DNA from: Peristeroidobacter soli
Lineage (GTDB): Bacteria; Pseudomonadota; Gammaproteobacteria; Steroidobacterales; Steroidobacteraceae
Direction of reading: 5' to 3'
Assembly (NCBI RefSeq): GCF_004138485.1
Contig: NZ_RYEV01000003.1
Span: 124,001 to 188,000 of the forward strand
DNA: 64,000 bases
Below the pieces are notes generated by a model, which was not told where the DNA came from, made no database searches, and saw only the letters and a program-made list of their open reading frames with translations. Position 1 is the stretch's first letter. Each line of letters begins with the position of its first letter. Positions 16,579 through 64,000 of the stretch are shown here, piece after piece. Made by a program: the position numbers and the translations under genes.

Positions 16579-16625
16579 GACAAGTCCGTTCGCCCTTCAT
16601 GCCCGCGAAGATTCACAGGCGTTGG

Positions 16626-49488: not shown

Positions 49489-49641
49489 GGGCTTTCCTCT
49501 CGACTCGCAGGGTTGAGAATCTTTGGGTCACGGACGGTCAGGCGCAACGCTGGTGCATGAACTGTGCGTTGCCGCACCAACTTTGCGCTCATTCCGACTT
49601 GAGCCAGGCTTGAATTGTCACCGCCAGGCTCTCTATGATCG

Positions 49642-49657
49642 TCATACATCATACAAA
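49642..49657. promoter_or_regulatory. GntR operator candidate, site 1 (TonB receptor promoter)
   Basis: TCATACATCATACAAA contains two overlapping TCATACA half-sites; CATACAAA matches the right half of the island-wide motif TTGT-CAT-ACAA. It lies about 112 bases upstream of the TonB-receptor ATG. The left half is degenerate here. Confidence 0.5.
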
Positions 49658-49768
49658 AATACCATCGTATTATCGGTTCGAATGGTGGTATGCAAGTTGC
49701 AGTGCTTGAGAGTTGTGGGTTGTGGGGATGCGCGACGCGGTCGCGTCGCATAACTTTGAGGAGCTTGC

Positions 49769-52033
49769 ATGAGAGTCAGCACCAATCGGCTCGGTGGCCG
49801 GGTCGCCGTCCGGATCGGCCAGGCCGTCGCGCTGGCGGCGACCGCCATGGTCACTGTCGCGAACGCGCAGGAGGCGATCGTCGAGGAAATCGTCGTTACC
49901 GCGACCAAGCGCGAAACGACGATGAAAGATACCCCCGCGGCCATTTCGGCGGTCACCGGTGACGCCATTCGCGAGAGCGCCGCGTTCTCGCTGGAAAGTT
50001 TCACGCGAATGGACCCGTCCATTCAGGTCAACAACCGCGGTGTGGGTGACAACCAGATCATCGTCCGCGGCATTTCCTCGTCGGGCAAGCCCACGGTCGG
50101 TTTGTACTTCGACGAAGCAGTCATCACCGGCCTCGGCCTCGATGGCGGCAGCGACAATCAACCGAACATCCAGCTCCACGACATGGAGCGCGTGGAAATT
50201 CTCAAAGGTCCGCAGGGCACGCTGTTCGGTGCCGGATCGATGAGCGGCACGGTGCGCTTCATCACCAACAAGCCCGACTTGTCGAAAGCATCGTTCGGCT
50301 TCACCGGCTCGGCGGCCAGCGTGAAGGACGGCAACGAGCTGTTCCAGGGCGAAGCGGTCGCGAACCTGCCCATCATCGAAGACAAGCTCGGCATGCGCGC
50401 CGTGGTGTGGGGCGATACCGGTGGCGGCTATATCGACCAGAACCGCAATGGCCGGCAGTACGAAGATGTGAACGACCAGACCGTATGGGGCGGGCGCCTG
50501 TCGCTCGCTTCGCAAGTGACCGATTCGTTCAAGGTCACGCTGATGGGGCTGTATCAGGAAAGCAAAGCCGACGGTTCCCAGTACTTCGAGTTCGGTCAGC
50601 CCGACTACCAGAACATCTCGCCGACCCAGGAGCCGTTCGAGGACGAGATCAAGCTGTTCAGCATCATCGGCGACTACGACGTGGGCTTCGGTACCTTCAC
50701 CGGCACCGCCTCGTACATGGATCGCACGTTGTATTTCTCGCGTGACAGTACGCCGACCGCTCAGCGATTCAATCTGGGCGTGGATCTGGCGTATCACCAG
50801 GACCAGGATATTTCCAACTTCTCCTCCGAATTCCGCTTTGCCTCGAAGCTCGGCGGTCCGGTCGAGTTCGTCGCCGGTGTGTTCTACGCCGAGCAGGAAT
50901 CCGATGCGCGCACCGCCGCGCTGGTCGCCGATCCGAACACGGGCCTCGCGCGCTGTAACTTCCACAACGACTGCGTCGCCGCCGGCTTCGCGCGCGACGA
51001 CATCAATTCGGGCATCAACAACACCACCATCGATCAGTTCGCCGCTTTCGGCGAGCTGGAATACAAGATGACCGACAAGCTCACCGGCACGATCGGTGTG
51101 CGTTACTACGAGGCGGACATCGGTCAGCGCAACATCACCAGCCAATCGCTGCGTCATCCGGTGTTCATGCCGGTGCAGACGGCGGATGTCGTGTCGCTCG
51201 ATGTGGATACCACGCAGGACGAGCTGAGCTACAACTTCGCGCTGTCCTATGAGGCCACCGAAGATACGACGTTCTATGCGCGCATCGCCTCCGGCTTCCG
51301 TCCGGGCGGCGCGAACAACTCGGACGCGGCGCGCGAACAGGGCGTCACCGTGCCGGATGCCTACGATTCGGACACGCTGTGGAGCTACGAGCTCGGCGCC
51401 AAGAGCTACTTCTTCGATCGCTCCATGTACACCGAGCTGGCGGTCTATCGCATCAACTGGTCCGATCAGCAGATTTCGCTGACCGATCCGGGTGGCACGT
51501 TCGTCTACATCGGCAACGCCGGCAAGAGCTACGTGAACGGCTTCGAGTTCACGGTCAACGCGCAGCCGACCGATCAGCTGTCGATGACGTTGGGCGCGAC
51601 GTATACCGATTCGCGGCTGTCGGAAGACATGCCGGTGCCGCCGCCGCCGGCCGATCCCGATGACGAGCCGACGCCGTACGGCTTCAAGGGCGATCGCATT
51701 CCGTACAGCCCGAAGTGGGCGTTCGCCGGCCAGGTGCAATATGAAGTGCCGTTCTCCTCGGCGCTCACCGGCTATGCCAATACCAACTTCAACTACCGGA
51801 GCGCGTCGTACACCAACTTCAACAGCACCTTCGGCGACTATCAGGAAGTCGAGGATTACTTCCTGGTGGGCCTGCGGCTGGGGGTGCGGTTCGATGGCTG
51901 GGACACGGGTCTGTTCGTCGACAACCTGACCAACGAAGTGCCGCAGATCGGCCTGCGCGTCAGTGGTGACGGTTATCGCGTGTACACCACGCGGCCGCGC
52001 ACGATCGGTCTGCGAGTCTCGACGCGTTTCTAA
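49769..52033 (+). CDS. TonB-dependent receptor of the catabolic island
   Basis: 754 residues with a signal peptide (about 1-33, ending VANAQ) and a TonB-box-like EEIVVTATKRE. The plug domain (about 45-160: TPAAISAVTGDAIRE ... RVEILKGPQGTLFGAGSMSG) and a barrel ending RPRTIGLRVSTRF are complete. This is the sphingomonad/Caulobacter-type receptor seen beside aromatic or xenobiotic catabolic genes. It probably imports the island's substrate across the outer membrane; the MFS transporter 67 bases downstream would take it through the inner membrane. Confidence 0.92.
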   Translation: MRVSTNRLGGRVAVRIGQAVALAATAMVTVANAQEAIVEEIVVTATKRETTMKDTPAAISAVTGDAIRESAAFSLESFTRMDPSIQVNNRGVGDNQIIVRGISSSGKPTVGLYFDEAVITGLGLDGGSDNQPNIQLHDMERVEILKGPQGTLFGAGSMSGTVRFITNKPDLSKASFGFTGSAASVKDGNELFQGEAVANLPIIEDKLGMRAVVWGDTGGGYIDQNRNGRQYEDVNDQTVWGGRLSLASQVTDSFKVTLMGLYQESKADGSQYFEFGQPDYQNISPTQEPFEDEIKLFSIIGDYDVGFGTFTGTASYMDRTLYFSRDSTPTAQRFNLGVDLAYHQDQDISNFSSEFRFASKLGGPVEFVAGVFYAEQESDARTAALVADPNTGLARCNFHNDCVAAGFARDDINSGINNTTIDQFAAFGELEYKMTDKLTGTIGVRYYEADIGQRNITSQSLRHPVFMPVQTADVVSLDVDTTQDELSYNFALSYEATEDTTFYARIASGFRPGGANNSDAAREQGVTVPDAYDSDTLWSYELGAKSYFFDRSMYTELAVYRINWSDQQISLTDPGGTFVYIGNAGKSYVNGFEFTVNAQPTDQLSMTLGATYTDSRLSEDMPVPPPPADPDDEPTPYGFKGDRIPYSPKWAFAGQVQYEVPFSSALTGYANTNFNYRSASYTNFNSTFGDYQEVEDYFLVGLRLGVRFDGWDTGLFVDNLTNEVPQIGLRVSGDGYRVYTTRPRTIGLRVSTRF

Positions 52034-52049
52034 ACCAGCCGTAACGATC

Positions 52050-52090
52050 CGGCGGTCGTTCCCGATGCGGGGAGCGACCGCCGTTTGTTT
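52050..52090 (+). terminator. intrinsic terminator between TonB receptor and MFS genes
   Basis: CGGCGGTCG-T-TCCC pairs with GGGA-G-CGACCGCCG (stem 52050-52083), followed by TTTGTTTG. It ends 11 bases before the MFS start codon, so read-through or a separate promoter must express the transporter. Confidence 0.8.
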
Positions 52091-52100
52091 GTGACAGTTC

Positions 52101-53354
52101 ATGACTGAATCAAAAATCTTTCTGCGTGGCTGGGTCACCGTCGTGGTGTGCCTGCTCGGCATTTCCACCGGGCCGGCCGCGTTCGGGCTGGCGTCGCTGT
52201 TTCTTTTGGGCGGCCCGATCGGCGCCGAGTTCGGATGGAGCCGCACGGCCATCAGCGCGGCCGTGTCGGTGATGATGTTATGCACGGCGGTGTCGCTGCC
52301 GTTCATGGGGCGGATGGTCGACCGCTTCGGCGTGAAGAAGATCCTGGTGCCCTCGATCATCATCTTCGGCCTGTGTTTCCTCGCGGCGTCGATGATCAAC
52401 AGTTACTGGCAGTTCATCGCGCTGTATGTGGCGATGGGCACCATCGCCGTGGGCACGAACAGCGTGCCTTACATGCGGGTACTCACCTCCTGGTTCGATC
52501 GGCGCCGCGGTCTCGCGATCGGCATCGCCGGCAGCGGCACCGGTCTGGGCTTTGGCTATGTGCCGCTCATTACTCAAGAGCTCGTCTCGCACTACGGTTG
52601 GCGTGGCGGCTACTTCGGCCTCGGCCTGATCATGTTGTTGTTCACGCTGCCGATGGTTGTGTTTCTGCTGCACGAAAAGCCGCAGTCGCTGGGCTTGCAT
52701 CCCGACGGCGCGGTTTCCGATGCGCCGCCGGAACATCCTGTGGCCACCGGCGATACGCTTGCCGAAGCCATGCGACGACGTGACTTCTGGAGTTTGATCA
52801 CGATCTTCTCGGGCCTGGCGTTCGTGCTGTACGGATTGATCCCTCACATGGTGCCGATGCTTCAGGATCGCGGCGTGCCGGCGGGTCTGGCTGCGGGTCT
52901 TGCGTCGGCGTTCGGCTGGTCCGCGTTCGGCGGGCGATTGCTGATCGGCTTCCTGGTCGATCGTTTCGACGCGCGGCGCATTGCCTTCGTGTTCTTCTCG
53001 TTGTCGGCAGTGGGATTGGGATTGTTGTCCGCGCCTTTGCCGATCTGGGTGTTCACTGTCGCGGCGATCTTGCTCGGTCTGAGCCTGGGCGCTGAAGTGG
53101 ACATGCTCGCGTATCTCACCAGCCGCTACTTTGGCTTGAAAAACTTCGCGCAGATCTTCGGCGCGATGTTCTCGGCGGTGATGGTGGCGATGAGCCTGAG
53201 TCCGCTCGCCTTTGGGTACGTGTTCGATCACACGGGTTCGTACAAGTCGATTCTCGCGCTCGGTGTGCCGCTGTGTGCGCTGGCGATCGTGCTGGTGTTG
53301 ATGTTGCGGCCCTACGGTGAGCGCGCTCGCGGCGGCCCGATCTCCGTCACCTGA
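52101..53354 (+). CDS. MFS transporter, monocarboxylate/oxalate-like
   Basis: 417 residues with 12 predicted membrane helices. The loop 2-3 signature appears as GRMVDRFGVKKIL and loop 8-9 as GRLLIGFLVDRFDARRI. Residues such as TSWFDRRRGLAIGIAGSGTG place it in the OFA/monocarboxylate-transporter-like branch common in catabolic clusters. It probably imports the aromatic or organic acid used by the island. Confidence 0.9.
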   Translation: MTESKIFLRGWVTVVVCLLGISTGPAAFGLASLFLLGGPIGAEFGWSRTAISAAVSVMMLCTAVSLPFMGRMVDRFGVKKILVPSIIIFGLCFLAASMINSYWQFIALYVAMGTIAVGTNSVPYMRVLTSWFDRRRGLAIGIAGSGTGLGFGYVPLITQELVSHYGWRGGYFGLGLIMLLFTLPMVVFLLHEKPQSLGLHPDGAVSDAPPEHPVATGDTLAEAMRRRDFWSLITIFSGLAFVLYGLIPHMVPMLQDRGVPAGLAAGLASAFGWSAFGGRLLIGFLVDRFDARRIAFVFFSLSAVGLGLLSAPLPIWVFTVAAILLGLSLGAEVDMLAYLTSRYFGLKNFAQIFGAMFSAVMVAMSLSPLAFGYVFDHTGSYKSILALGVPLCALAIVLVLMLRPYGERARGGPISVT

Positions 53355-53379
53355 TCCCAAAAATCAGGACATAAAAAAA

Positions 53380-53405
53380 GGCCCGAGGTCTCTCGACCCC
53401 GGGCC
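53380..53405. terminator. bidirectional intrinsic terminator
   Basis: GGCCCG-A-GGTC (53380-53390) pairs with GACC-C-CGGGCC (53395-53405) around TCTC. The A run at 53373-53379 gives a T run for minus-strand transcripts, so it mainly ends the aldolase/dioxygenase operon. Confidence 0.8.
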
Positions 53406-53426
53406 TAGCCTCATAACCTCAGCAGA

Positions 53427-54278
53427 TCAGGCCGACTCTTTCGGCCCGCCCTGGTCCGCGATCTGCACGCGGAAGCCCGAGCGCAGTTGCGGGAAGTAAT
53501 CCCAAATCGCCAGGTGCTGCGTGCAGCGGTTGTCCCAGAACGCCACCGAGTGCGGCTCCCAGCGGAAGCGCACCTGGAAGTACGCGTTTTCGCAGTGGTG
53601 GAACAGGAACTGCAGGATCGCCGCGCTCTCCGCATCGGGCACTTCGTTGATGCGCGCGGTGAAGCCCTTGTTCACGTACAGCACTTTGCGGCCCGTCACC
53701 GGATGGGTGCGAATCACCGGATGGACCGCGACCGGGAATTTGCCATCGGGATTGAATCGGCCAAATGCGAGTTTTCCGTCATGCGTCGCTGTGAGGCCCT
53801 CGAGATAGGCCTTCATGCGATCCGACAGCGCATCGTAGGCGGCATACATGCTCGCAAACACAGTGTCGCCGCCCATGGTCGGCAGCGTGTGCAAATAGAG
53901 GATGCTACCCATCGGAGGAATCGTCGCGCACGACATGTCGGTGTGCCATTCCTCGCCGGCGACATGCTTCGAATTCGCATCCGCCTGCAGCTTGCGCACT
54001 TCCGGATGATCCGGCAGGCCCTGCAACGCGTGGATCTGCAGCTCGCCGAAATATTGACCGACGCGCTTCAGCGACGGCGGATCGAGCGCCTGATTGCGGA
54101 AGAAAATCACCTGGTGATCGGCGATCGCGGCATTCAGATCGGCGACCTGCTGAGCGCTCAGCGGCTTGCTCAGATCGATGCCGGAGATCACGGCGCCGAT
54201 GGTCGGCGTCAGCCGGTCGGCGGTGAGGGTTTGATAGCTCTGGCTGGGCGGAACGGCTGGCTTCGGATTGGCGGCCAT
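53427..54278 (-). CDS. TauD/TfdA-family Fe(II)/2-oxoglutarate dioxygenase
   Basis: 283 residues from the ATG at 54278. The metal ligands are H112-T-D114 in EEWHTDMSC and H255 in NRCTQHLAIWDY; R266 or R270 would bind 2-oxoglutarate. Family length is normal. TauD removes sulfite from taurine and TfdA cleaves the ether bond of aryloxyacetates; both reactions couple substrate hydroxylation to succinate and CO2 release. Being last in the aldolase operon, it probably does an upper-pathway hydroxylation or ether cleavage on the island's substrate, which is inference. Confidence 0.9.
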   Translation of the reverse strand: MAANPKPAVPPSQSYQTLTADRLTPTIGAVISGIDLSKPLSAQQVADLNAAIADHQVIFFRNQALDPPSLKRVGQYFGELQIHALQGLPDHPEVRKLQADANSKHVAGEEWHTDMSCATIPPMGSILYLHTLPTMGGDTVFASMYAAYDALSDRMKAYLEGLTATHDGKLAFGRFNPDGKFPVAVHPVIRTHPVTGRKVLYVNKGFTARINEVPDAESAAILQFLFHHCENAYFQVRFRWEPHSVAFWDNRCTQHLAIWDYFPQLRSGFRVQIADQGGPKESA

Positions 54279-54300
54279 GGGAATCTCGAAAAGAAATTGA

Positions 54301-55353
54301 TTACGAAGCAAGTTTGTCTTGGCGGTCTGCAGCGCCGTCGCGAGCCCGCACGAGGTCGAGCGCGACGTCGGTGATCATGTCTTCCTGGCCGCCGACCATG
54401 CGGCGCCGGCCGAGCTCGACCAGGATGGTGCGAGTGTCGAGCCCATACATCGCCGCGGCCTTTTCGGCGTGGCGCAGGAACGAGGAGTAAACGCCGGCAT
54501 AACCGAGCGTCAGGGTTTCGCGATCGACGCGCACCGGCCGGTCCTGCAACGGGCGAACCAGATCTTCCGCGGCGTCCATCAGCTTGAACAGATCGCAGCC
54601 GTGCTGCCATCCGTACACATCAGCGGCGGCGATGAAGACTTCCAGCGGCGCATTGCCGGCGCCGGCGCCCATGCCGGCGAGGCTGGCGTCGACTCGGATC
54701 GCACCGTTTTTCACGGCGAGAATGGAGTTCGCGACGCCGAGGCTCAAGTTGTGATGCGCGTGAATGCCGCGCTGAGTCTCAGGCTTCAAAACGCGATCGT
54801 AAGCTTGGAAACGCGCGGCGGTGTCGTCCATCGTCATTGCGCCGCCGGAGTCGGTGACGTACACGCAATGAGCGCCGTAGCTTTCCATCAACTTCGCTTG
54901 CGCGGCGAGTTGCTCGGGCGGACTCATGTGGCTCATCATCAAGAAGCCGGACACGTCCATGCCGAGATTACGCGCGTATTCTATGTGCTGCTGAGAAACA
55001 TCAGCTTCAGTGCAGTGAGTGGCGATGCGCACCGAGCGCACGCCGAGATCGAATGCATGACGCAAGTCGTGAACGGTGCCGATGCCGGGCAGCAGCAACG
55101 TCGTGAGCTTGGTGTGTTTGATCACTTCGGCGACGGCTTCGATCCACTCCCAATCGGTGTGCTTGCCGAAACCGTAGTTGAATGAAGAGCCGGCGAGGCC
55201 GTCGCCATGCGCGACTTCGATGGCGTCGACACGTGCTTCATCGAGCGCACGCGCAATCTTCTTGACGTGATCGATACCGTATTGATGGCGAATGGCGTGC
55301 ATGCCATCGCGCAATGTCACGTCTTGAATGTAGAGCTTGCTGGTCGGGCTCAT
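54301..55353 (-). CDS. 4-hydroxy-2-oxovalerate aldolase
   Basis: 350 residues of the MhpE/BphI/DmpG type. The HMGL-like TIM barrel has the R15-D-G17 motif in [15 protein letters not shown], the metal-binding [12 protein letters not shown] and the C-terminal communication domain ([20 protein letters not shown]). It splits 4-hydroxy-2-oxovalerate into pyruvate and acetaldehyde, channelling the aldehyde to the dehydrogenase encoded upstream. The two ORFs overlap by 4 bases (ATGA), as expected for a complex made together. Confidence 0.95.
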
Positions 55354-56300
55354 GCAGCGATCTCCTCGCGGAGATTGAGGGCCACGCGCTCGGCGGTGCG
55401 CAGCGCGGCGGAGGTCATGATATCGAGATTTCCCGCGTAAGCCGGCAGGTAATGCGCGGCGCCTTCCACTTCCAGGAATACGCTGACCTTGAGTCCGACG
55501 AATGATTCGTCGACGCCCTTGAACGGCAGCTTGATGCCCGGGCCGACGCGCTCGAATTGCACGCGTTGTTTCAGGCGATAGCCGGGAACGTAACTTTGCA
55601 CTTCCGAGACCATGTTTTGCACGGACGCTTCGATCGCGCTTTCGTCGGCGAGCGCGGTGAGGCAGTACACCGTATCGCGCATCACCAGCGGAGGCTCGGC
55701 GGGGTTCAGCACGATAATGGCCTTACCGTGCTGCGCCCCGCCTACCTGTTCGATGGCTCGTGCCGTGGTCTCAGTAAACTCGTCAATGTTTGCTCGCGTG
55801 CCGGGGCCGGCGGATTTGCTGGCGATCGACGCGACGATCTCCGCGTACAACACCGGCGCGACCTTGCCGACGGCGGCGACGATGGGGATGGTCGCCTGAC
55901 CGCCGCAGGTCACCATGTTCAGATTCGGCGCGCCGAGATGCTGATCGCCGTTCACCGGCGGAATAACGAACGGACCGACCGCGGCCGGAGTCAAATCGAT
56001 CAGCGTCTTGCCTTGCGCGCGCAATATCGAATCGTGATGTTTGTGAGCGCCGGCGGACGTGGCGTCGAACACCAGGCGCACGTCTTTGAATTCCGGCATG
56101 GCCCGGAAGCCGTCGATGCCCTGCGAGGTGGTTGCGACGCCGAGTCGCCTGGCGCGGGCCAGTCCCTCGGACTGAGGGTCGACGCCGACCATCGCTGCCA
56201 TCCGCAAAGTGCGGCTGGTGCGCAGGATCTTGATCATCAGGTCCGTGCCGATATTGCCGGAGCCGATGATCGCTACGGGGACGCGGGCTGTCGTGTCCAT
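55350..56300 (-). CDS. acetaldehyde dehydrogenase (acylating)
   Basis: 316 residues of the MhpF/BphJ/DmpF type. NAD binding is at [14 protein letters not shown] (residues 11-24) and the catalytic Cys is C132 in [31 protein letters not shown] and [16 protein letters not shown] are family-conserved. It converts acetaldehyde and CoA to acetyl-CoA. First gene of a three-gene minus-strand operon, with an operator-like palindrome 36-50 bases upstream. Confidence 0.95.
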
Positions 56301-56335
56301 GGCCAGTAGTCCGGTGAAGGGGTGGCATTAAGGTA

Positions 56336-56350
56336 GTATGATCATACAAT
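56336..56350. promoter_or_regulatory. GntR operator candidate, site 2 (divergent promoter)
   Basis: GTATGATCATAC (56336-56347) is a perfect 12-bp palindrome, and CATACAAT (56343-56350) matches the right half of the island motif. It lies between the divergent acetaldehyde dehydrogenase (56300) and aspartate-dehydrogenase-like (56382) genes, so it can control both. Confidence 0.65.
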
Positions 56351-56381
56351 ATTATCAAATACCGCCTGATGGACGGCGGTC

Positions 56382-57209
56382 ATGAGGCGGGCGATGCGAC
56401 GTAATGTGCGGCTGGGCATGATCGGTTTCGGCGCCATGGGGCGCGAGGTCCTGACCGGTCTGGAGAAACTGGGCGAGACCGACACCCTGCAGGCGGTGCT
56501 GGTCCGGCCGGGTCGGGAGGCTCCGAAGGCGGTTCATGATGTCCAGGCTCTGCTCGCCGCGCGACCTCAGGTCGTCATGGAATGCGCCGGCCATTCGGCG
56601 GTGAAGGAATTCGCGGCGCCGCTGCTGCGAGCCGGGATCGACGTGATCATTTCGTCGGTCGGCGCGCTGGCGGATGACCAGGTCAGAAATGAATTACTCA
56701 CAGCGGAACGTGGTGGCGGCCGCGCGCTGCTGCCAGCGGGCGCGATCGCCGGGCTCGACGGGCTGCTGGCCGCGAGGCTCGCAGGTTTGGATGAAGTGAC
56801 CTACACATCGTTCAAGCCTCCGCATGCATGGCGAGGCACGGCGGCCGAGCAGGTACTTGACTTAAACCATTCCGAAGCGGAGCGCGAATTCTTTGCGGGC
56901 TCGGCGCGCGAGGCGGCGTTGGCGTATCCGAAGAACGTCAATGTAGGTGTGGCTATCGCGTTGGTGGGCCTGGGAATGGATGCGACCCGAGTGCGGCTGG
57001 TGTCGTCCCGCAACGTCACCGACCCGCTCGGCCGCATCGAAGCGAGCGGCGCGTTCGGATACTTTCGTTTCGATATTTTCGCGCGTGCAGCGATGGATAA
57101 TCCGAAAACTTCGGCGCTGACCGCGTACAGTATCGTGCAATGTGCCCGCCTCGGCGGCGCCTTGCCGATTGCCGGTTTGTGCTCGCCACCGATGCCAGCA
57201 ACCCTATGA
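56382..57209 (+). CDS. aspartate-dehydrogenase-like (NadX-type) oxidoreductase
   Basis: 275 residues; the ATG at 56394 is also possible. The Rossmann loop is GFGAMG (15-20), followed by VVMECAGHSAVKEFAAPLL, the NVNVGVAIALVG block near 184-195 and DNPKTSALTAYSIVQC at the end. These match the L-aspartate dehydrogenase family. The family's N-x-H-x-I active-site segment reads DPLGRI here (G216 where His is expected), so true aspartate oxidation is doubtful. It may act on an island intermediate as an amino- or oxo-acid dehydrogenase. It lies 40 bases before the GntR gene, same strand. Confidence 0.82.
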   Translation: MRRAMRRNVRLGMIGFGAMGREVLTGLEKLGETDTLQAVLVRPGREAPKAVHDVQALLAARPQVVMECAGHSAVKEFAAPLLRAGIDVIISSVGALADDQVRNELLTAERGGGRALLPAGAIAGLDGLLAARLAGLDEVTYTSFKPPHAWRGTAAEQVLDLNHSEAEREFFAGSAREAALAYPKNVNVGVAIALVGLGMDATRVRLVSSRNVTDPLGRIEASGAFGYFRFDIFARAAMDNPKTSALTAYSIVQCARLGGALPIAGLCSPPMPATL

Positions 57210-57249
57210 TTTTTGCCGCCGCTTCTGCGCGCGACTTCGAGGAAGGACC

Positions 57250-57981
57250 TTGGAATACCAGGATCTGAGAATTGTTGAGAATCCGACGCTGGTGCGAGAG
57301 CACGCGCTGGACAAGCTGCGTAGTGCGATCAGCCGAGGCTTGTATCCGCCGGGCATGAGGTTGGTGGAGCGCGAGCTGTGCGAGGCGCTGGGTGTCAGTC
57401 GCACCTCGGTGCGCGAGGCTTTGCGTCAGCTGCAGGCGGAGAACCTGATCGAAGTCGGCAAGCGTCGCAATATCACGGTCGCGATCGTTTCGTCGAAGGA
57501 CGCGGAAGACATTTATCTGATGCGAGAGATGCTGGAGACGCTGGCAGTGAAGCGTTTCGTGGCGCTTGCCGATGACAGCGCTGTGAAGAAGCTGGCGCGC
57601 ATCCACAAGGATCTTCGCAAGGTGTTGAACAAGGGCGACGTGCGCGAGCTGGCCATCATGGCGGGCGAGTTCTACGAGACCATCCTCAATGGTTCGGGAA
57701 GCAAGGTGATCGCCGACATGGCGCGCCAGTTGTTGACGCGCGTGAACTATCTACGCATGCGATCGATGGCCGAGCCGCATCGTCTCGAAGATGGCATCCA
57801 TGAGTGGGACACCTTGATGGAAGCGATCAATGCTCGCGATCCGGAAGCGGCGGCGAAGGCGATGGGTGCGCATCTGGCGAATGCGCGCAAGGCCATTGTG
57901 GCCAAGCTGAAGCAAGAGGAAGAGGCCGCTGCCGTGGTGGCTGTGCCCGAGCGGGCTACCGCCGCTCGTCGCTCTGGCTGA
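57250..57981 (+). CDS. GntR-family regulator, FCD subfamily
   Basis: I choose a TTG start at 57250 because GAGGAAGGA lies just upstream; 243 residues (LEYQDLRIVENPTLVREHAL). The winged helix is at about 18-80 (MRLVERELCEALGVSRTSVR, EALRQLQAENLIEVG). The FCD effector domain follows (about 90-220). The usual D-x3-H metal-ligand pair of helix 4 is EFYETI here, with Tyr replacing His. It is the only regulator in the island, so it should bind the TTGT-CAT-ACAA sites, including the one upstream of its own operon. Confidence 0.9.
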   Translation: MEYQDLRIVENPTLVREHALDKLRSAISRGLYPPGMRLVERELCEALGVSRTSVREALRQLQAENLIEVGKRRNITVAIVSSKDAEDIYLMREMLETLAVKRFVALADDSAVKKLARIHKDLRKVLNKGDVRELAIMAGEFYETILNGSGSKVIADMARQLLTRVNYLRMRSMAEPHRLEDGIHEWDTLMEAINARDPEAAAKAMGAHLANARKAIVAKLKQEEEAAAVVAVPERATAARRSG

Positions 57982-58041
57982 TCGGGCCAGGGCGAGCCCC
58001 GTTAGCACGGGGCGGATGGGTCTTAATTGTGTGATTCTATG

Positions 58042-58054
58042 TTTGTCATACAAA
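58042..58054. promoter_or_regulatory. GntR operator candidate, site 3 (monooxygenase promoter)
   Basis: TTTGT-CAT-ACAAA is a perfect 5-3-5 inverted repeat, the best copy of the island motif. It ends 46 bases before the ATG of the FAD monooxygenase gene. Confidence 0.72.
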
Positions 58055-58100
58055 GACCGCCCGGCTACACTCTCCGCCATCGCCAGCGGAAGTTCGATTC

Positions 58101-59333
58101 ATGGGCACAGCGCCGGATAGAGATCGGGTCATCATCGCCGGGGCGGGGCCGATCGGCGCCGTGCTCGCCTACGCGCTGCGACAGCGCGACATTCCGGTCC
58201 TCTTAGTCGAGGCACTGCCCGCACCCGAAATCGATTGCCGCGCAGCCTCCTGCCACCCGCCGACCGTCGCCATGCTCGAGGAGCTCGGGCTCCTCGAAGC
58301 CGGTCTCGAGCAGGGCCTCGTCTCCCCGGTATTCAATTATCTGGATCGCGTCACCGGCCAACTCGTCGGTCGCTTCGACATCGAGGCCATGCGCGACCGC
58401 CCCAAACATCCGTACGTTCTGCAGTGGGAGCAGTACAAGATCGTCGGTACCGTATTGCAGCGTCTGGCCACTGACGCCGGAGCCGAAATCCGCATGTCGA
58501 CGCGCGTCGTCGCGATCGAGCAGGACGCGGACAAAGTTGAAGTCACTGTGACATTGCCCGACGGCAGCGACGAAATCCTTTCCGGCCGCTATCTGGTCGG
58601 TTGCGACGGTGGCCGCAGCACCATTCGCAAACTGGCCGACATCGAGTTCGACGGCTTCACCTGGCCGGAACGTTTTCTGAAGATCGACACCCGCTTCGAC
58701 TTCTTCGGGTTGCGGCCCGAGCTGAGCAATCGCAACTACTTCTCCGATCCCGACGAATGGTTGAATCTTTTCAAGGCGCGTGGCGCCAGCGGCGAAGGGA
58801 TGTGGCGCGCTGTGAGCCCCACGTTGCCGGAGCAAACCGATGACGAACTGTTATCACCGGACGCCGTCGAGGCGCGTCTGCAGAAGTTTTGTCCCAAACC
58901 GGGCCGCTATGAAATTGCGACCATCGCGCTATACAAAGTGCACCAGCGCGTGGCTGCGACGTTCAACCGTGGTCGCGTGTTACTCGCGGGCGATTCGGCG
59001 CATGTGAACAATCCGGTGGGCGGCATGGGCATGAACGGCGGCATTCACGACGCCATCAATCTCGCCGACAAGCTGCAGGCGATCTGGTTCGAGGGCGCCG
59101 ACCCGCAGCCGCTGCTGGATCGTTACACCCGGCAACGTCGCAAGGCGCAGGTCGATTACGTGCAGGCGCAGAGCATTCAGAACAAGCAGACGCTCGGTGA
59201 GAAAGATCCGGTCGAGCGGGCCAAGAAGCTGGATGGCATCCGGCGCCAGTCGGCCGATCCCGAATTGCACGATGCATTCATTCGTCGCGCCTGTCTGATC
59301 GATAGCCTGCGCGATGCGAACGCCACTCTGTAG
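58101..59333 (+). CDS. FAD-dependent aromatic monooxygenase (MhpA/PheA-like)
   Basis: 410 residues, group A flavoprotein hydroxylase. Dinucleotide binding is IIAGAGPIGAVLAYALRQRD (residues 11-30), the second FAD motif is LVGCDGGRSTIRKLADIEFD (about 166-185) and the GD motif is VLLAGDSAHVNNPVGGMGMN (about 293-312). NAD(P)H reduces FAD and the flavin hydroperoxide hydroxylates a phenolic ring. It is shorter than MhpA (about 550), lacking the C-terminal thioredoxin-like domain. First of a three-gene run with cupin and gamma-glutamyltransferase-family genes. Confidence 0.92.
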   Translation: MGTAPDRDRVIIAGAGPIGAVLAYALRQRDIPVLLVEALPAPEIDCRAASCHPPTVAMLEELGLLEAGLEQGLVSPVFNYLDRVTGQLVGRFDIEAMRDRPKHPYVLQWEQYKIVGTVLQRLATDAGAEIRMSTRVVAIEQDADKVEVTVTLPDGSDEILSGRYLVGCDGGRSTIRKLADIEFDGFTWPERFLKIDTRFDFFGLRPELSNRNYFSDPDEWLNLFKARGASGEGMWRAVSPTLPEQTDDELLSPDAVEARLQKFCPKPGRYEIATIALYKVHQRVAATFNRGRVLLAGDSAHVNNPVGGMGMNGGIHDAINLADKLQAIWFEGADPQPLLDRYTRQRRKAQVDYVQAQSIQNKQTLGEKDPVERAKKLDGIRRQSADPELHDAFIRRACLIDSLRDANATL

Positions 59334-59344
59334 AGGTTTCCGCC

Positions 59345-59872
59345 ATGTCCGTTGCCCGTCATCCGCGTCCGCCCGAACTGGTCGGCGCTTCGCTCGAGCA
59401 GATCATGGATCGTTACGTCGCGCGCTTCGCCGATCGCGTGCCGGACTGGAATGCGTTCTCGGATGCCAACATCGACGGCTATCGCCGTGCGCAGCATCGG
59501 TTCGTCGGCGCGGGCGCGTCGGGCAAGCACGATGACAGCACCATCGTGCCGGCCGGCAATTTCACGCTGTCGATCATGCTGGTGCCGCCGGGGCAGGGCA
59601 ATGCGCCGCATACGCATGAAGTCGAAGAGATCTTCTTTGTGCTGCAGGGTCGCTGTGTCGTGTTCATCGAAGAGGAAGACGGCCGGCGCCTGAGCAGGGA
59701 GCTGAATCAGTGGGAAATGATTTCCTGTCCGCCGGGCGTCATTCATGGTTACGTGAATGAAACCAACGAGCCGGTGTATCTGCAGGTCATGCTCGGTCGC
59801 GGCCGGCCGGAGACCGCGGGTTTCGTCGATCAGAAGCTGTTCGAGAACAAGAACGCGCACCTGACGCGTTAA
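59345..59872 (+). CDS. cupin-domain protein
   Basis: 175 residues with one cupin barrel. Motif 1 is APHTHEVEEIFFVLQG (about 83-98: H-x-H-x4-E) and motif 2 is SCPPGVIHGYVNETNEP (His near 139), giving a normal mononuclear metal site. An N-terminal helical part of about 65 residues precedes the barrel. Cupins in catabolic clusters act as isomerases, dioxygenases or decarboxylases; ring cleavage is possible but not shown. It starts 11 bases after the monooxygenase stop, and the next gene starts 3 bases after its stop. Confidence 0.85.
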   Translation: MSVARHPRPPELVGASLEQIMDRYVARFADRVPDWNAFSDANIDGYRRAQHRFVGAGASGKHDDSTIVPAGNFTLSIMLVPPGQGNAPHTHEVEEIFFVLQGRCVVFIEEEDGRRLSRELNQWEMISCPPGVIHGYVNETNEPVYLQVMLGRGRPETAGFVDQKLFENKNAHLTR

Positions 59873-59875
59873 CCG

Positions 59876-61666
59876 ATGTTCACGACTCGCCCGGAGATTC
59901 GCGGCACCTACGGCGTGGTCGCCTCGACGCACTGGATCGCGTCGGGTGTCGGCATGGCCATGCTCGAGCGCGGCGGTAACGCGTTCGATGCGGCTGTCGC
60001 CATCGGCTTCGCGCTGCAAATCGTCGAGCCTCATTTGTGCGGGCCAGCCGGCGAAGTGCCGATCATCTTCAGGTCGGCACGCGACGCGCAGCCCACCGTG
60101 CTGTGTGGCCAGGGCGTGGCGCCCGCCGCTGCAACCATCGAGCACATGCGCTCGATGAATCTCGACATGGTGCCGGGTTCGGGGTTGATCGCCGCGGTCG
60201 TGCCGGGCTCGTTCGACGCGTGGATGACGCTGCTTCGAGATCACGGCAGCATGCGGCTCGCCGATGTGTTGGAGCCGGCGATTCATTACGCCGAAGCAGG
60301 TCATCCATTGTTGCCCGGCGTGTCGCGCGCGATTGCGGATGTCGCCGATGCGTTCCGAAAGCTATGGCCTACGTCTGCGCCGGTCTGGTTGCCGAACAAT
60401 GAAGTGCCAACGGCGCATCAACTCTTCCGCAATCCAACGCTCGCGGCGACGTGGCGAAAGATTCTTGACGCAGCGGGTGAGGGCACGCGTGAGCAACAGA
60501 TCGAGCGCGCGCGAGCCGCGTGGTCGAACGGATTCGTCGCGGACGCAATCGATCGGTTCTGCCGCACGCAGGAACTGATGGATGCGAGTGGCGAGCGTCA
60601 CAAAGGGTTGCTCACCGGCGACGACATGGCGAAGTGGCAGGCCACTTACGAATCGCCCCAGACCTTTCGATATCGCGACTGGACCTTTCACAAGACCGGG
60701 CCTTGGGGACAAGGGCCGGTGTTGTTACAGACATTGTCGCTGCTTGCCGGGTATGACTTGTCGAAGCTGCCGGCGTCGGAGCCGGAGTTCGTGCATGTCG
60801 TGCTGGAGGCGCTCAAGCTCGCGTTCGCGGATCGCGAGGCGTACTACGGCGATCCGAATTTCACCCAGGTTCCGCTCGATGCGTTGTTGAGCGAGAGCTA
60901 CGCGGCAGAGCGCCGCAAGCTGATCGGCGACAGCGCTTCGCATGAGTTGCGCCCGGGTGTGCTGCCCGGCTTCGAAGCGCAGGTCGCCAAGAGCCTGAAC
61001 ATGGTTCGGATCGCCAGGAATGAAAGCGCCGGCCTCGGTGTGGGCGAGCCGACGATGATGCATTTGAAGCCGACCTTGAAGCCCGGCGACACCGTTCATT
61101 TCGACGTGATCGACCGCTTCGGCAACATGGTCTCGGCGACGCCATCGGGCGGCTGGCCGCAATCGTCGCCGACGATTCCGGAGCTGGGATTTGCGCTGAA
61201 TACACGCGCGCAGATGTTCTGGTTGGAGCCTGGGTTGCCGGGCAGCCTCGAGCCCGGCAAACGGCCGCGCACGACGCTTACGCCGACGCTGGCGACGCGC
61301 GATGATGGGCTGTCGTTGATCTGCGGGACGCCGGGCGGCGATCAGCAGGACCAGTGGCAGTTGATTCTGTTACTGCGCTACATCCACCACGGGCTCGATC
61401 TGCAACAGGCCATCGACGCGCCGCTGTTCCACAGCGTGCACTTCCCGGCGTCGTTCTATCCGCGCGAGGCGTTGTTGGGAACGGCGGTGATCGAAGAGAG
61501 TTACGGTGAGAAGGTCATCAGCGAGTTGAAGCGCCGCGGTCACAACGTGAAAGTCGCGCCCGAATGGTCCGCAGGCCGACTCACAGCGGCGTTGCGGGGA
61601 ACGGATGGAATATTGAGAGCAGCCGCGACGCCGCGCTTGATGCAAGCGTACGCAGTGGGAAGATAA
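59876..61666 (+). CDS. gamma-glutamyltransferase-family enzyme
   Basis: 596 residues, Ntn-hydrolase fold without a signal peptide, resembling the YwrD-type branch. The self-cleavage and nucleophile threonine is probably T406 in GDTVHFDVIDRFGNMVSATP. The Gly-Gly oxyanion region is ICGTPGGDQQDQW and the N-terminal block is SGVGMAMLERGGNAFDAAVA. Family enzymes hydrolyse gamma-glutamyl amides or acylated beta-lactam side chains. It ends the monooxygenase-cupin operon, so it may open an amide or gamma-glutamyl conjugate of the island substrate (inference). Confidence 0.88.
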   Translation: MFTTRPEIRGTYGVVASTHWIASGVGMAMLERGGNAFDAAVAIGFALQIVEPHLCGPAGEVPIIFRSARDAQPTVLCGQGVAPAAATIEHMRSMNLDMVPGSGLIAAVVPGSFDAWMTLLRDHGSMRLADVLEPAIHYAEAGHPLLPGVSRAIADVADAFRKLWPTSAPVWLPNNEVPTAHQLFRNPTLAATWRKILDAAGEGTREQQIERARAAWSNGFVADAIDRFCRTQELMDASGERHKGLLTGDDMAKWQATYESPQTFRYRDWTFHKTGPWGQGPVLLQTLSLLAGYDLSKLPASEPEFVHVVLEALKLAFADREAYYGDPNFTQVPLDALLSESYAAERRKLIGDSASHELRPGVLPGFEAQVAKSLNMVRIARNESAGLGVGEPTMMHLKPTLKPGDTVHFDVIDRFGNMVSATPSGGWPQSSPTIPELGFALNTRAQMFWLEPGLPGSLEPGKRPRTTLTPTLATRDDGLSLICGTPGGDQQDQWQLILLLRYIHHGLDLQQAIDAPLFHSVHFPASFYPREALLGTAVIEESYGEKVISELKRRGHNVKVAPEWSAGRLTAALRGTDGILRAAATPRLMQAYAVGR

Positions 61667-61668
61667 CT

Positions 61669-61764
61669 CGGCTCGCCGGGACAGGCCGCAAGCTTTACCG
61701 GAGCAACGCGGCTCGCCAAGACAGGCCGCAAGCTTTACCCGAGCAACGCGGCTCGCTGCCGAAG
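61669..61764. repeat. 40-bp tandem repeat, two full copies and a partial third
   Basis: Units of 40 bases start with CGGCTCGCC and end GAGCAACG at 61669-61708 and 61709-61748, differing at about three positions. A third unit starts at 61749 and diverges after about nine bases into a GCCGAAGGCGGC hairpin. It lies just after the gamma-glutamyltransferase stop. Confidence 0.8.
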
Positions 61765-61794
61765 GCGGCAAGCGCGTCTGCAAGATAACCGAGC

Positions 61795-61815
61795 CTCGCC
61801 GCCGAAGGCGGTGAG
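61795..61815. terminator. stem-loop between convergent operons
   Basis: CTCGCCGCC pairs with GGCGGTGAG around GAA (one G-T pair). It ends 10 bases before the Rieske-ferredoxin stop and shares its GCCGAAGGCGG core with the hairpin at about 61757. Confidence 0.5.
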
Positions 61816-61824
61816 TGCTGCCTC

Positions 61825-62169
61825 TCAGTTCTTCAGCAGCAAATAAACTTTGCCGTCGGCGATCTCGATCGGCCACGTGCGCAGTGCCTGCTTGCACGGC
61901 AGGCTCTTCGCCTTGCCCGAGCAAACATCGAAGCTGCCTCCGTGCATCGGACAGAACACGATGTTTCCTTGCAGCCGGCCTTCCGACAACGACGCGATGG
62001 CGTGCGTGCATTCGTCATCGACCGCATAGATCTTGCCGCCGACATTGCACACCAGGATGGGATCGTGCCCCTCCGGTTGAACACGCAACATGCCGCCGGG
62101 CGCAACGTTGCCCGCCTCACACAACTGCAGGCGTCTGGACACAGGAATCATCGCGGCTTCGGCACTCAC
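61825..62169 (-). CDS. Rieske-type [2Fe-2S] ferredoxin
   Basis: 114 residues; the GTG at 62169 is used, and an ATG at 62151 is also possible. The cluster ligands are C54-T-H56 and C73-P-M-H76, with MHGGSFDVCSGKAKSLPC typical of NdoA/BphF-like ferredoxins. Such ferredoxins carry electrons from a reductase to a Rieske ring-hydroxylating dioxygenase, but no oxygenase subunit is visible in the window. The reductase at 62443 is a natural donor. Operator site 4 is 36-48 bases upstream. Confidence 0.9.
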   Translation of the reverse strand: MSAEAAMIPVSRRLQLCEAGNVAPGGMLRVQPEGHDPILVCNVGGKIYAVDDECTHAIASLSEGRLQGNIVFCPMHGGSFDVCSGKAKSLPCKQALRTWPIEIADGKVYLLLKN

Positions 62170-62204
62170 TCACGCAGACCCGACCCAAGAAGGATGGTTG
62201 TAGT

Positions 62205-62217
62205 ATTGTCATACAAA
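62205..62217. promoter_or_regulatory. GntR operator candidate, site 4 (ferredoxin promoter)
   Basis: ATTGT-CAT-ACAAA contains the perfect core TTGT-CAT-ACAA (62206-62216). It lies between the Rieske ferredoxin start (62169, minus) and a short plus-strand ORF (62235). Confidence 0.7.
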
Positions 62218-62234
62218 GTTCGCCCGGTCAACCG

Positions 62235-62396
62235 GTGATTGCACCGAATGCGAACTCAAGCAGGATTGGCCGCGCAACCGACCGGAAGTGCGAGGTGCCG
62301 CGGAAGCGCTACGAGCCCACTTGGCGTGCGATGCAGATGTTCACCAACGAGCGCGACGCGAACACGCCCGACCAGATCTGGAGGCGACAGCGATGA
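62235..62396 (+). CDS. short ORF with coding bias, unknown
   Basis: A 53-residue frame from a GTG at 62235, divergent from the ferredoxin and just downstream of operator site 4. The region RKRYEPTWRAMQMFTNERDA, then NTPDQIWRRQR, has high GC at third positions and a hydrophilic, protein-like composition. There is no clear ribosome-binding site. It could be a small protein or the remnant of a larger gene. I recognise no homologue. Confidence 0.35.
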   Translation: MIAPNANSSRIGRATDRKCEVPRKRYEPTWRAMQMFTNERDANTPDQIWRRQR

Positions 62397-62442
62397 AAAG
62401 GCCGAGCGAAGCGCCGGCCGATGACTCTTGGGAGTTTCTTGA

Positions 62443-63462
62443 TCAGCCGCCAGGCTGAAACCGCTCGGCGCGGATCGCCTGGCTCGCGACGCCGTGCGAA
62501 GTCAGGGCTTTGCGCGCGGCATCGACCATTGGCGGCGGGCCGCAAAGATAGCAGACAGTCTCCGCGTCGAAGTCTTCTTTCTGGAGCAGCGAAACGGCTG
62601 TGCCCGCGCGCAAATCTCCGTCCGCACCCTCCATCACAGCGATGCGCACTTCGAGCTCCGGCATTTCCGCGACGAGTGCCGCTAGCTCCAATTCATAGAA
62701 CAGTTCCTGCCGCCGCGTGCACCCGAAGCACAACAGCGCGGGCTGTCCGCGGCCGCGCAGTGAACGAATCATCGACAACACCGGCGCGAGCCCGGTGCCG
62801 CCAGCGATAAACACGTGTCGACGCGCACGATCGTCGAGTCCGAACGCGCCGAGCGGCGCCTGCAATTTCACGCGGTCGCCAACCTTCGCGACTTCTTGCA
62901 GCCAGCGTGACATTTTTCCGTCAGGGACCAGGCGGATCATCAGCTCGATCAACGGCAGCTCGCGGGTCGTGCTGGCGATGGAATACGCGCGCGCTTCGCC
63001 GACGCCTGGCGCGGCGAGACGAATGTACTGACCGCTCTGAAAAACGAAATCCTCGGCGCGATCGAGCTTGAGCGTCAGCAGTGCCACAGACGGCGCGCCA
63101 CGACGCAGCTCCATGATCTGCGCGGAATGTTTCGAGGGCGCGGAGGCGGCCGAACCCAGCGAGTAGGGCAGCTCGAACGACGCATCCGAGTTCAGGCGAG
63201 TGAGGCAGGCGGGCCGCAGTCCGGCCATCAACTCATCCGCGTTGACCGGGACTTTGCCAGTCAAATCAACGACGGTCTGACCGTCCAGGCATTGGACTAC
63301 GCAACTGCCACAGCTGCCGGAGCAGCAGTCATAGCGGACCGGCAGATCCACGGCCAGTGCGCCTTCCAGCACGGTCTGACCGGCCTCCACCTCGACAGAG
63401 CGCTCCGCGCCGTCCTGAAAAATCAATCGCGCCCGATGCATTAAGGTAACCGCTTCGACCAT
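62443..63462 (-). CDS. ferredoxin-NAD(P)H reductase with plant-type [2Fe-2S] domain
   Basis: 339 residues; an ATG at 63441 is also plausible. Residues about 8-100 form a plant-type ferredoxin with C46-x4-C51-x2-C54 and C86. The FAD domain follows (SGQYIRLAAPGVGEARAYSI), then NAD(P)H binding (VFIAGGTGLAPVLSMI) and the C-terminal YLCGPPPMVDAARKAL. This is the electron-input component of multicomponent ring oxygenases (BenC/XylZ/MmoC type). Its partner is likely the Rieske ferredoxin or an unseen oxygenase. Operator site 5 is just upstream. Confidence 0.93.
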   Translation of the reverse strand: MVEAVTLMHRARLIFQDGAERSVEVEAGQTVLEGALAVDLPVRYDCCSGSCGSCVVQCLDGQTVVDLTGKVPVNADELMAGLRPACLTRLNSDASFELPYSLGSAASAPSKHSAQIMELRRGAPSVALLTLKLDRAEDFVFQSGQYIRLAAPGVGEARAYSIASTTRELPLIELMIRLVPDGKMSRWLQEVAKVGDRVKLQAPLGAFGLDDRARRHVFIAGGTGLAPVLSMIRSLRGRGQPALLCFGCTRRQELFYELELAALVAEMPELEVRIAVMEGADGDLRAGTAVSLLQKEDFDAETVCYLCGPPPMVDAARKALTSHGVASQAIRAERFQPGG

Positions 63463-63470
63463 GTTGCATG

Positions 63471-63483
63471 ATTATCATACAAT
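63471..63483. promoter_or_regulatory. GntR operator candidate, site 5 (divergent promoter)
   Basis: ATTAT-CAT-ACAAT differs from the perfect motif at one position. It lies between the divergent reductase (63462) and hydratase (63516) genes and can control both. Confidence 0.65.
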
Positions 63484-63515
63484 CATATAACGTTACCTCA
63501 GCAAGAGGGCGAATC

Positions 63516-64000
63516 ATGGATCACAGAGTCGGCGAGACCGCGCAAGCCTTGTTGGATGCCTATAGCGGCGCGCCGCTGCCCCCGATCCGCAGTCGATTCG
63601 ATGCGGGCGACACCCGCGCGGCCTACGCCGTGCAGCTGGCGCAGATCGAGCATTGGATCGAGAAGGGCCGCCGGCCCGTGGGCCGCAAGATCGGACTCAC
63701 GTCGCCGGCGGTACAGAAGCAGTTGGGCGTGGCTGAACCGGATTTCGGTCAGCTGTTCGCGGACATGGTGTATGGCACCGGCGAGACGATTCCGGTCTCC
63801 CGATTGCAGCAGCCGCGCGTGGAGGCCGAGATTGCGCTGATCCTGTCCCGTGATTTGGATATGGCCCACGCGACCGTCGCGGACGTGATTGCATCGGTCG
63901 GCTGTGTATTGCCCGCGCTGGAAGTCGTCGGCAGTCGCATCGCCGGTTGGCAGATCGACATTGTCGACACCATTGCCGACAACGCGTCGTCGGGCGTGTT
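63516..64000 (+). CDS. 2-keto-4-pentenoate hydratase, cut by the right edge
   Basis: 161 complete codons from the ATG at 63516, with AAGAGGG upstream. The FAH-like hydratase fold shows GRKIGLTSPAVQKQLGVAEP, DFGQLFADMVYGTGETIPVS, then RVEAEIALILSRDL and ALEVVGSRIAGWQIDIVDTI, all typical of MhpD/BphH/TesE. Full proteins are about 260 residues, so about 100 are missing. It hydrates 2-oxopent-4-enoate to 4-hydroxy-2-oxovalerate, the substrate of the aldolase at 54301. Confidence 0.94.
   Translation, partial: MDHRVGETAQALLDAYSGAPLPPIRSRFDAGDTRAAYAVQLAQIEHWIEKGRRPVGRKIGLTSPAVQKQLGVAEPDFGQLFADMVYGTGETIPVSRLQQPRVEAEIALILSRDLDMAHATVADVIASVGCVLPALEVVGSRIAGWQIDIVDTIADNASSGV

Follow-up and report, generated by a model that had tools for sequence, protein, structure and literature searches.

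Five predicted operators and a candidate GntR regulon in a catabolic island of Peristeroidobacter soli

Operators of the FCD/FadR type follow the consensus TKGT-N3-ACMA, and Suvorova and co-workers reported that GntR-family sites can have further, weaker boxes at 7-12 nt from their centre (both from excerpts of PMC4494728). AlkR, an FCD/VanR repressor, protects ATTGTCAGACAAT in footprints over -10 regions, and the VanR group has the consensus ATTGTCXXACAAT (excerpts of PMC12042122). NanR of E. coli has a (GGTATA)3 operator that is bound cooperatively by several dimers (excerpts of PMC8012715). We analyzed a 64,000-nucleotide stretch of Peristeroidobacter soli (the window; positions 124001-188000 of contig NZ_RYEV01000003.1, from a genome of 9.37 Mb), which contains a catabolic island with a gene for an FCD-type GntR regulator, gntR, at 57250. 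Five short sites (s1 to s5) were identified in this island, and sequence comparison makes it very likely that they are the operators of this protein, controlling the island transcripts most likely by repression.

Operator architecture and rarity

A first-pass annotation had placed TTGT-CAT-ACAA or close variants at five points upstream of island transcripts. All five are present as given, and their location is borne out, with s4, as far as the open reading frames show, upstream of the minus-strand ferredoxin gene only. The element identical in all of them is TCATACAA, on the + strand at 49649, 56342, 58046, 62209, and 63475. The operators were delimited as follows.

49631..49656, + strand: s1, upstream of the TonB receptor and MFS transporter genes
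56331..56349, + strand: s2, between the divergent acetaldehyde dehydrogenase (-) and NadX-like/gntR (+) genes
58035..58053, + strand: s3, upstream of the FAD monooxygenase, cupin, and gamma-glutamyltransferase (GGT) genes; outer arm TTCTATGT, exact core TTGTCATACAA
62198..62216, + strand: s4, upstream of the Rieske ferredoxin gene (-); outer arm TTGTAGTA, exact core TTGTCATACAA
63464..63490, + strand: s5, between the divergent reductase (-) and hydratase-Rieske oxygenase (+) genes; outer arm TTGCATGA, core TTATCATACAA, and second outer arm TCATATAA, hence an outer box on both sides

The best copies had been described as perfect inverted repeats with a 3-base centre; this is true of s3 and s4, which are exact, and not of s5, with one mismatch, or of s2 and the re-registered s1, with two each. 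At its earlier-reported coordinates s1 has no left half-site, and a better core, TCGTCATACAT, lies 3 bp earlier (49639-49649, two mismatches), preceded by the outer arm CTCTATGA and overlapped by TCATACAA as a second half-site. The best inverted repeat of s2 is TAGTATGA-TCATACAA, with zero spacer. Compared with TKGT-N3-ACMA, the cores of s3 and s4 fit exactly, those of s5 and s2 with one mismatch, and that of s1 with two; compared with TTGTCNNACAA, s3 and s4 are again exact, s5 has one mismatch, and s1 and s2 have two.

An outer element, inverted TTGTATGA, ends 3 bp before TCATACAA and, counted from the core, forms a further TTGT half-site, 8 bp ahead of where the core begins. Over the five sites it agrees at 29 of 40 positions (z 5.4) with s1 placed on its first copy and at 24 of 40 (z 4.0) with s1 on the second copy, and under both anchorings it was the best of 182 offset/strand combinations, the anchor itself apart. 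The outer arm matches 6, 6, and 7 of 8 positions at s3, s4, and s5, respectively, against 0-4 of 8 at the 19 off-island sites that resemble TTGTCATACAA with one mismatch. These comparisons suggest an operator with a TTGT-N3-ACAA core (TTGTCATACAA), in which the right half, TCATACAA, is invariant, plus an outer half-site, TTGTATGA, starting 8 bp before the core. Since additional boxes are already known from the excerpts of PMC4494728, the outer half-site would be an instance of a reported phenomenon. Given two poor palindromes, an outer half-site, and a regulon that extends beyond the window, the first-pass description of the sites was too simple.

No sixth TCATACAA occurs on either strand of the window, and the 5 observed copies compare with a mean of 0.41 and a largest count of 2 in 100 shuffles. 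The count of TTGTCATACAA with up to 2 mismatches in the window was not above chance (7 versus a shuffle mean of 5.49, with 32 of 100 shuffles reaching 7); what is significant is not this count but the invariance of the right half, the positions of the sites, and their conservation. In the whole genome, exact TTGTCATACAA has 2 copies, s3 and s4, both in the island, and one mismatch adds 20 places, namely s5 and 19 outside the island; because the backward-read control gave 46 matches (19+27), the one-mismatch class outside the island is regarded as background. The 16-base IUPAC consensus WNNWWBRTCATACAAW had 5 matches in the genome, all in the island, and its backward control had 0, although this consensus was derived from these very sites and is informative only in the absence of matches elsewhere. 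Window shuffles, genome scans, and the outer-arm comparison agree that the motif is not equally frequent at random intergenic sites. Another pattern, TTGTNCATNACAA, had 5 matches with none at s1 to s5 and was rejected as the shared motif.

Conservation in the genus and at homologous regulators

The regulator gene (88-92% identity) and the cluster were found in four other genomes of the genus, the named carriers being Steroidobacter and Peristeroidobacter, and the same motif recurs upstream of the orthologous clusters, with TCATACAA at all five sites in all five genomes (25/25). Relatives with these sites include S. agaridevorans and S. gossypii. Invariant blocks across the five genomes span 34 bp at s2, 20 bp at s3, 20 bp at s4, and 30 bp at s5. 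Beyond the site region, 9%, 21%, 2%, and 16% of the columns, respectively, are invariant, in an ungapped display in which indels lower the outer-flank figures and exaggerate flank divergence. Around s1, 45% of the columns outside the site are invariant; its neighborhood is conserved anyway, so conservation is less telling there. Among 14 genomes of the genus, the same 5 carry gntR, the CarAa-type gene, and the five sites, and stray matches to the 16-base consensus amounted to one in all across the 9 genomes without gntR and one in one of the 5 carriers.

The leader of the TonB gene (window 49609-49701) is conserved far beyond s1 in the five genomes, in runs between -40 and +52 around TCATACAA that include GGTGGTATGCAAGTTGCA; the receptor protein itself is 71-77% identical despite this strongly conserved leader, which is possibly a further regulatory element or a leader RNA. 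In Peristeroidobacter agariperforans, the reductase gene is separated from the ferredoxin operator by approximately 2.9 kb (L037:15242-18120), with s4 intact, and this stretch holds an open reading frame (15898-16764) that is RHS/YD-repeat-like by eye.

Outside the genus, 50 loci with homologues of the regulator were collected, of which 42 (34-43% identity) remained after 8 redundant ones were dropped. At 17 of the 42 loci, the 250 bp upstream of gntR contain TTGTNNNACAA with at most 1 mismatch; among 956 other windows, 44 contain it (Fisher p 2e-11). The exact form is present at 5 of 42 versus 4 of 956 (p 1e-5). These background windows include coding DNA, whose G+C content is higher than that of promoters, so that a ranking of inverted repeats is the better-matched control. 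In this ranking of 4352 combinations of 4-mer and spacer in the upstream regions, first place went to TGTC-N1-GACA, with 7 loci, and second place to TTGT-N3-ACAA, with 5; the two overlap, and both fit TTGTCNGACAA. The third-ranked repeat, TTGT-N11-ACAA (4 loci), was not used, since three of its four occurrences resemble one another and are located at the start of the gene. Over all 50 loci the 11-mer, with at most 1 mismatch, has 20 occurrences, and 40 permuted 11-mers have a mean of 1.8 and a maximum of 10. The outer half-site was also seen here: among 21 core sites of other bacteria (the 17 upstream of gntR homologues, one each from L080 and L083, and two in L072), TTGT at the same distance from the core was the best of 27 offsets (z 3.0; best ACAA 2.0), with p 0.0004 in flank shuffles for all 21 sites, 0.0007 for 19, and 0.004 for a 13-site subset.

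Several of these loci adjoin catabolic genes. On a Mariluticola plasmid (L080:5144-9657), a 42% GntR homologue is accompanied by TTGTATGACAA in a divergent promoter directed toward a 48% homologue of the island FAD monooxygenase, and other homologues adjoin a trigonelline operon (annotated tgnABC; L123:1-4663) and similarly built catabolic operons (L112, L116, and L120). A more distant CarAa-type cluster, L072, from a genome of the same class, has an oxygenase of 53.8% identity and a different, divergent FCD-like regulator that keeps the three classical His residues (by eye); the gap between these two genes (L072:8319-10331) harbors TTGTCCTACAA and TTGTCTGACAG, and TTGTCTGACAA precedes the hydrolase gene. 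In a car-like cluster on an Acinetobacter johnsonii plasmid (L129:7941), TTGTAGAACAA precedes the first gene of the run by approximately 100 bp, and no GntR gene is annotated in the fetched stretch.

Another regulator encoded elsewhere could read the sites, with GntR a mere neighbor, and Fur comes to mind given the TonB receptor and the iron-sulfur proteins of the island and a resemblance of s5 to part of the Fur box as judged by eye. A global regulator would have sites elsewhere, whereas the 16-base consensus has none outside the island; gntR and the sites also share one distribution in the 14 genomes (which linkage would also give), and the core is seen again at gntR homologues that neighbor other catabolic genes. 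We therefore consider a foreign reader very unlikely, and Fur was set aside with it.

Promoter overlap and the GntR protein

A sigma70 consensus scan of 49400-63600 (14.2 kb) gave six matches, which are individually weak, as shuffles had a mean of 3.4; all but one of them overlap the five sites. The corresponding predictions are as follows.

49610-49639, + strand: predicted promoter at s1, with the -10 covered by s1
56322-56350, + strand: predicted promoter at s2, with most of the -10, TACAAT, inside s2
58043-58071, + strand: predicted promoter at s3 (TTGTCA-17-TACACT), with the start of the core as -35
62231-62202, - strand: predicted promoter at s4 (TTGACC-18-AATACT), with s4 overlapping the -10
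63455-63483, + strand: predicted promoter at s5, with TACAAT as -10

On the minus strand, the scan placed a prediction at s4 only and none for the divergent pairs at s2 and s5.

Because the operators overlap predicted sigma70 promoters, a bound protein would most likely block RNA polymerase. In the mechanism that we propose, GntR would occupy the five predicted operators and hold the island transcripts together, excluding the polymerase sterically until a substrate or intermediate of the pathway releases it. As gntR stands directly 3' of the NadX-like gene, which is preceded by s2, the regulator probably limits its own synthesis, and s2 would be the site of this autorepression. It is improbable that the protein instead activates at these sites, or acts both ways like BphR1 of P. 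furukawaii. GntR regulators from biphenyl clusters can act as activators if their operator is situated outside the promoter (excerpts of PMC10282184), whereas the promoters predicted here run through the operators, with the -10 or -35 within the site, in the layout of a repressor as in the excerpted accounts of AlkR and BphS.

The same overlap raises the question of whether TCATACAA is part of a shared promoter element, a TACAAT-like -10, rather than of an operator. TACAAT or TACAAA does occur within the sites, and TACAAT is the -10 of the + promoters predicted at s2 and s5; the octamer, however, is on the -35 side in s3 and on the strand opposite the transcript in s4, the conserved block of s3 reaches 10 bp upstream of the octamer and 7 bp past the predicted -35, and the octamer in this context is absent from the rest of the genome. 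We find a promoter element scarcely credible on these grounds and retain the operator assignment.

The protein at 57250 matched the FCD domain PF07729 (8e-26, 91.3 bits; cut-off 24.3) and the winged helix-turn-helix (HTH) domain PF00392 (1.1e-17, 63.9 bits; cut-off 27), and among the first-look candidates scored (28 of 54) it was the only match at E <= 1e-30 in its own genome. No DNA-binding Pfam family was matched among the other island proteins scanned, in agreement with the first-pass statement that it is the only regulator in the island. Together with the geometry of the sites, their rarity in the genome, and the core at 17 of the 42 homologues, this FCD-GntR gene lends support to the first-pass proposal of a GntR regulon.

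Classical FCD domains have a set of metal-ligand residues, which is not required of all members. When the protein was aligned to 7xp0 and the 50 homologues, three of the four metal-ligand positions held non-ligands (D..FH to A..FY and EH to EW) and the last His was kept; effector recognition is therefore probably not metal-based. By eye, the 50 homologue rows likewise have lost three of the four ligands (FH to FY, EH to EW/EI/EM), with the last His in most. Position 59 is Asn where most homologues in our alignment have Gly, and excerpts of PMC4494728 give Asn there a tendency towards A/T that is not significant.

Besides the coding DNA in the background windows and the ungapped display mentioned above, several results weigh against the assignment of the five sites to this regulator. 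Both s1 and s2 are poor 4-3-4 palindromes with two mismatches to TTGT-N3-ACAA, and the outer arm of s2 matches 7 of 8 positions at zero spacer but 4 of 8 at the 3-bp spacing. Of the 42 homologue loci, 25 have no such core within 250 bp upstream, including the closest, L066 and L109; L080 has an exact site beyond the 250-bp limit, 761 bp upstream of gntR and within the divergent promoter of the preceding gene; and the octamer TCATACAA alone was not significant in the homologue loci (8 occurrences, a number also reached by 37 out of 400 permuted octamers). In pCAR3 (Novosphingobium KA1), the gap between carR and carAa contains no TTGTNNNACAA. Finally, in the excerpts of PMC4494728, HTH domains with Arg at position 28 and Ser at position 40 tend to pair with TGGT, the G form of TKGT, rather than with TTGT, and the protein at 57250 has both residues, which would predict TGGT. 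A homologue with the same two residues, L115, is nevertheless encoded behind TTGTCAGACAA, so this trend does not decide.

A more far-reaching possibility, which we regard as doubtful, is that an FCD clade lacking the usual metal site recognizes an operator of composite form, TTGT-N4-TTGT-N3-ACAA, with at least 2 dimers side by side. The outer half-site would then set the hold on each promoter and let one regulator grade the whole island, and regulators of further heteroaromatic pathways across Proteobacteria might have this architecture too.

The island and its comparison with known systems

The catabolic island extends from 47.9 kb to the end of the window and approximately 4.3 kb further (locus L024). 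Its genes within the window are as follows.

47887..49488, - strand: tannase/feruloyl-esterase family gene, divergent from the TonB gene
49769..52033, + strand: TonB-dependent receptor
52101..53354, + strand: MFS transporter
53427..54281, - strand: TauD/TfdA-family dioxygenase
54301..55353, - strand: 4-hydroxy-2-oxovalerate aldolase, above the TIGR03217 cut-off
55350..56300, - strand: acetaldehyde dehydrogenase (acetylating), above the TIGR03215 cut-off
56382..57209, + strand: aspartate-dehydrogenase (NadX)-like gene, first gene, preceding gntR
57250..57981, + strand: gntR, FCD-type GntR regulator, directly 3' of the NadX-like gene; start codon TTG, with a GTG upstream at 57142 also open
58101..59333, + strand: FAD-binding monooxygenase
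59345..59872, + strand: cupin-domain protein
59876..61666, + strand: GGT-family protein
61825..62169, - strand: Rieske ferredoxin
62443..63462, - strand: ferredoxin reductase (Fer2-FAD-NAD)
63516..64000, + strand, cut by the window edge: 2-oxopent-4-enoate hydratase-like gene, below curated cut-offs

The hydratase transcript, and hence the regulon, runs past the window edge into L024, where the hydratase gene is followed by genes for a CarAa-type Rieske oxygenase, an alpha/beta hydrolase, a LigB dioxygenase, and a TauE/TSUP permease. The oxygenase matches solved CarAa (E 7e-134) and is adjoined by the LigB-type dioxygenase and the hydrolase, whose nearest models are HsaD/BphD, with scores below their cut-offs. 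Gene order suggests seven transcripts: TonB receptor-MFS; aldehyde dehydrogenase-aldolase-TauD; NadX-gntR; monooxygenase-cupin-GGT; ferredoxin; reductase; and hydratase-oxygenase-hydrolase-dioxygenase-permease. The five sites would jointly serve these seven, or perhaps eight with the tannase-family gene, over an island of approximately 20 kb; that gene adjoins the island in all four relatives with the cluster (4/4) and may possibly also be under s1 control. We take the island enzymes to form an aromatic ring-oxidation, meta-cleavage, and lower route leading to pyruvate plus acetyl-CoA. Carbazole was considered as the substrate and not adopted, as the enzyme set fits the type but sequence cannot give the substrate.

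Read in this way, a 20-kb catabolic island becomes one regulon that can be tested, for which a regulator and five operators are named and whose co-controlled genes point to a single pathway, tying in otherwise unrelated-looking functions (NadX-like, gamma-glutamyltransferase, TauD-like, and tannase-like). It also provides an operator definition for an FCD clade adjoining aromatic and heterocycle catabolism genes in several proteobacteria. The case is convincing and testable at once rather than surprising, a well-supported example of a familiar bacterial gene switch. Among the literature matches listed, which consisted of abstract beginnings, we found no description of this regulon, which is not proof of absence.

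As far as the cited excerpts go, NanR resembles the present system as a GntR protein with several half-sites close together, and differs in having direct repeats and a 32-residue N-terminal extension, whereas the island sites are predicted to combine an inverted core with an outer half-site. BphS and BphR1 share GntR control of an aromatic meta-cleavage pathway, theirs with a ring-cleavage intermediate as effector (excerpts of PMC10282184); their gene set differs, and the likeness drawn here is one of regulator family and pathway type. The carR-carAaBaBbCAc cluster of Novosphingobium KA1 pCAR3 likewise brings together a CarAa-type oxygenase (54.6% identity over 366 aa), a class III dioxygenase, a hydrolase, a TonB receptor, and a GntR gene. 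However, CarR is 30% identical to the island GntR protein, and the pCAR3 genes form one run while the island lies behind five promoters. Between the L024 oxygenase (ending at 2498) and hydrolase (from 2501) there is no room for a gene such as that of the small subunit CarBa, which was not sought elsewhere. AlkR, in the excerpts of PMC12042122, is like the proposed regulator in that an FCD-GntR protein represses a catabolic oxygenase gene through an operator of the same type, ATTGTCAGACAAT, and TTGTCATACAA fits the VanR group consensus; it differs in its main target, alkB2, and its acyl-CoA effectors, where the island has five promoters and an aromatic pathway, and the island protein is distant from it (9ISW matched at E 6.5e-05). 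The five-site family has the geometry of FCD/FadR-type operators set out in the excerpts of PMC4494728, and GntR/FCD repressors that control a catabolic pathway through a TTGT-N3-ACAA operator are of an already known type; what is new is this member, its island-wide closed regulon, and the evidence for an outer half-site shared in the clade.

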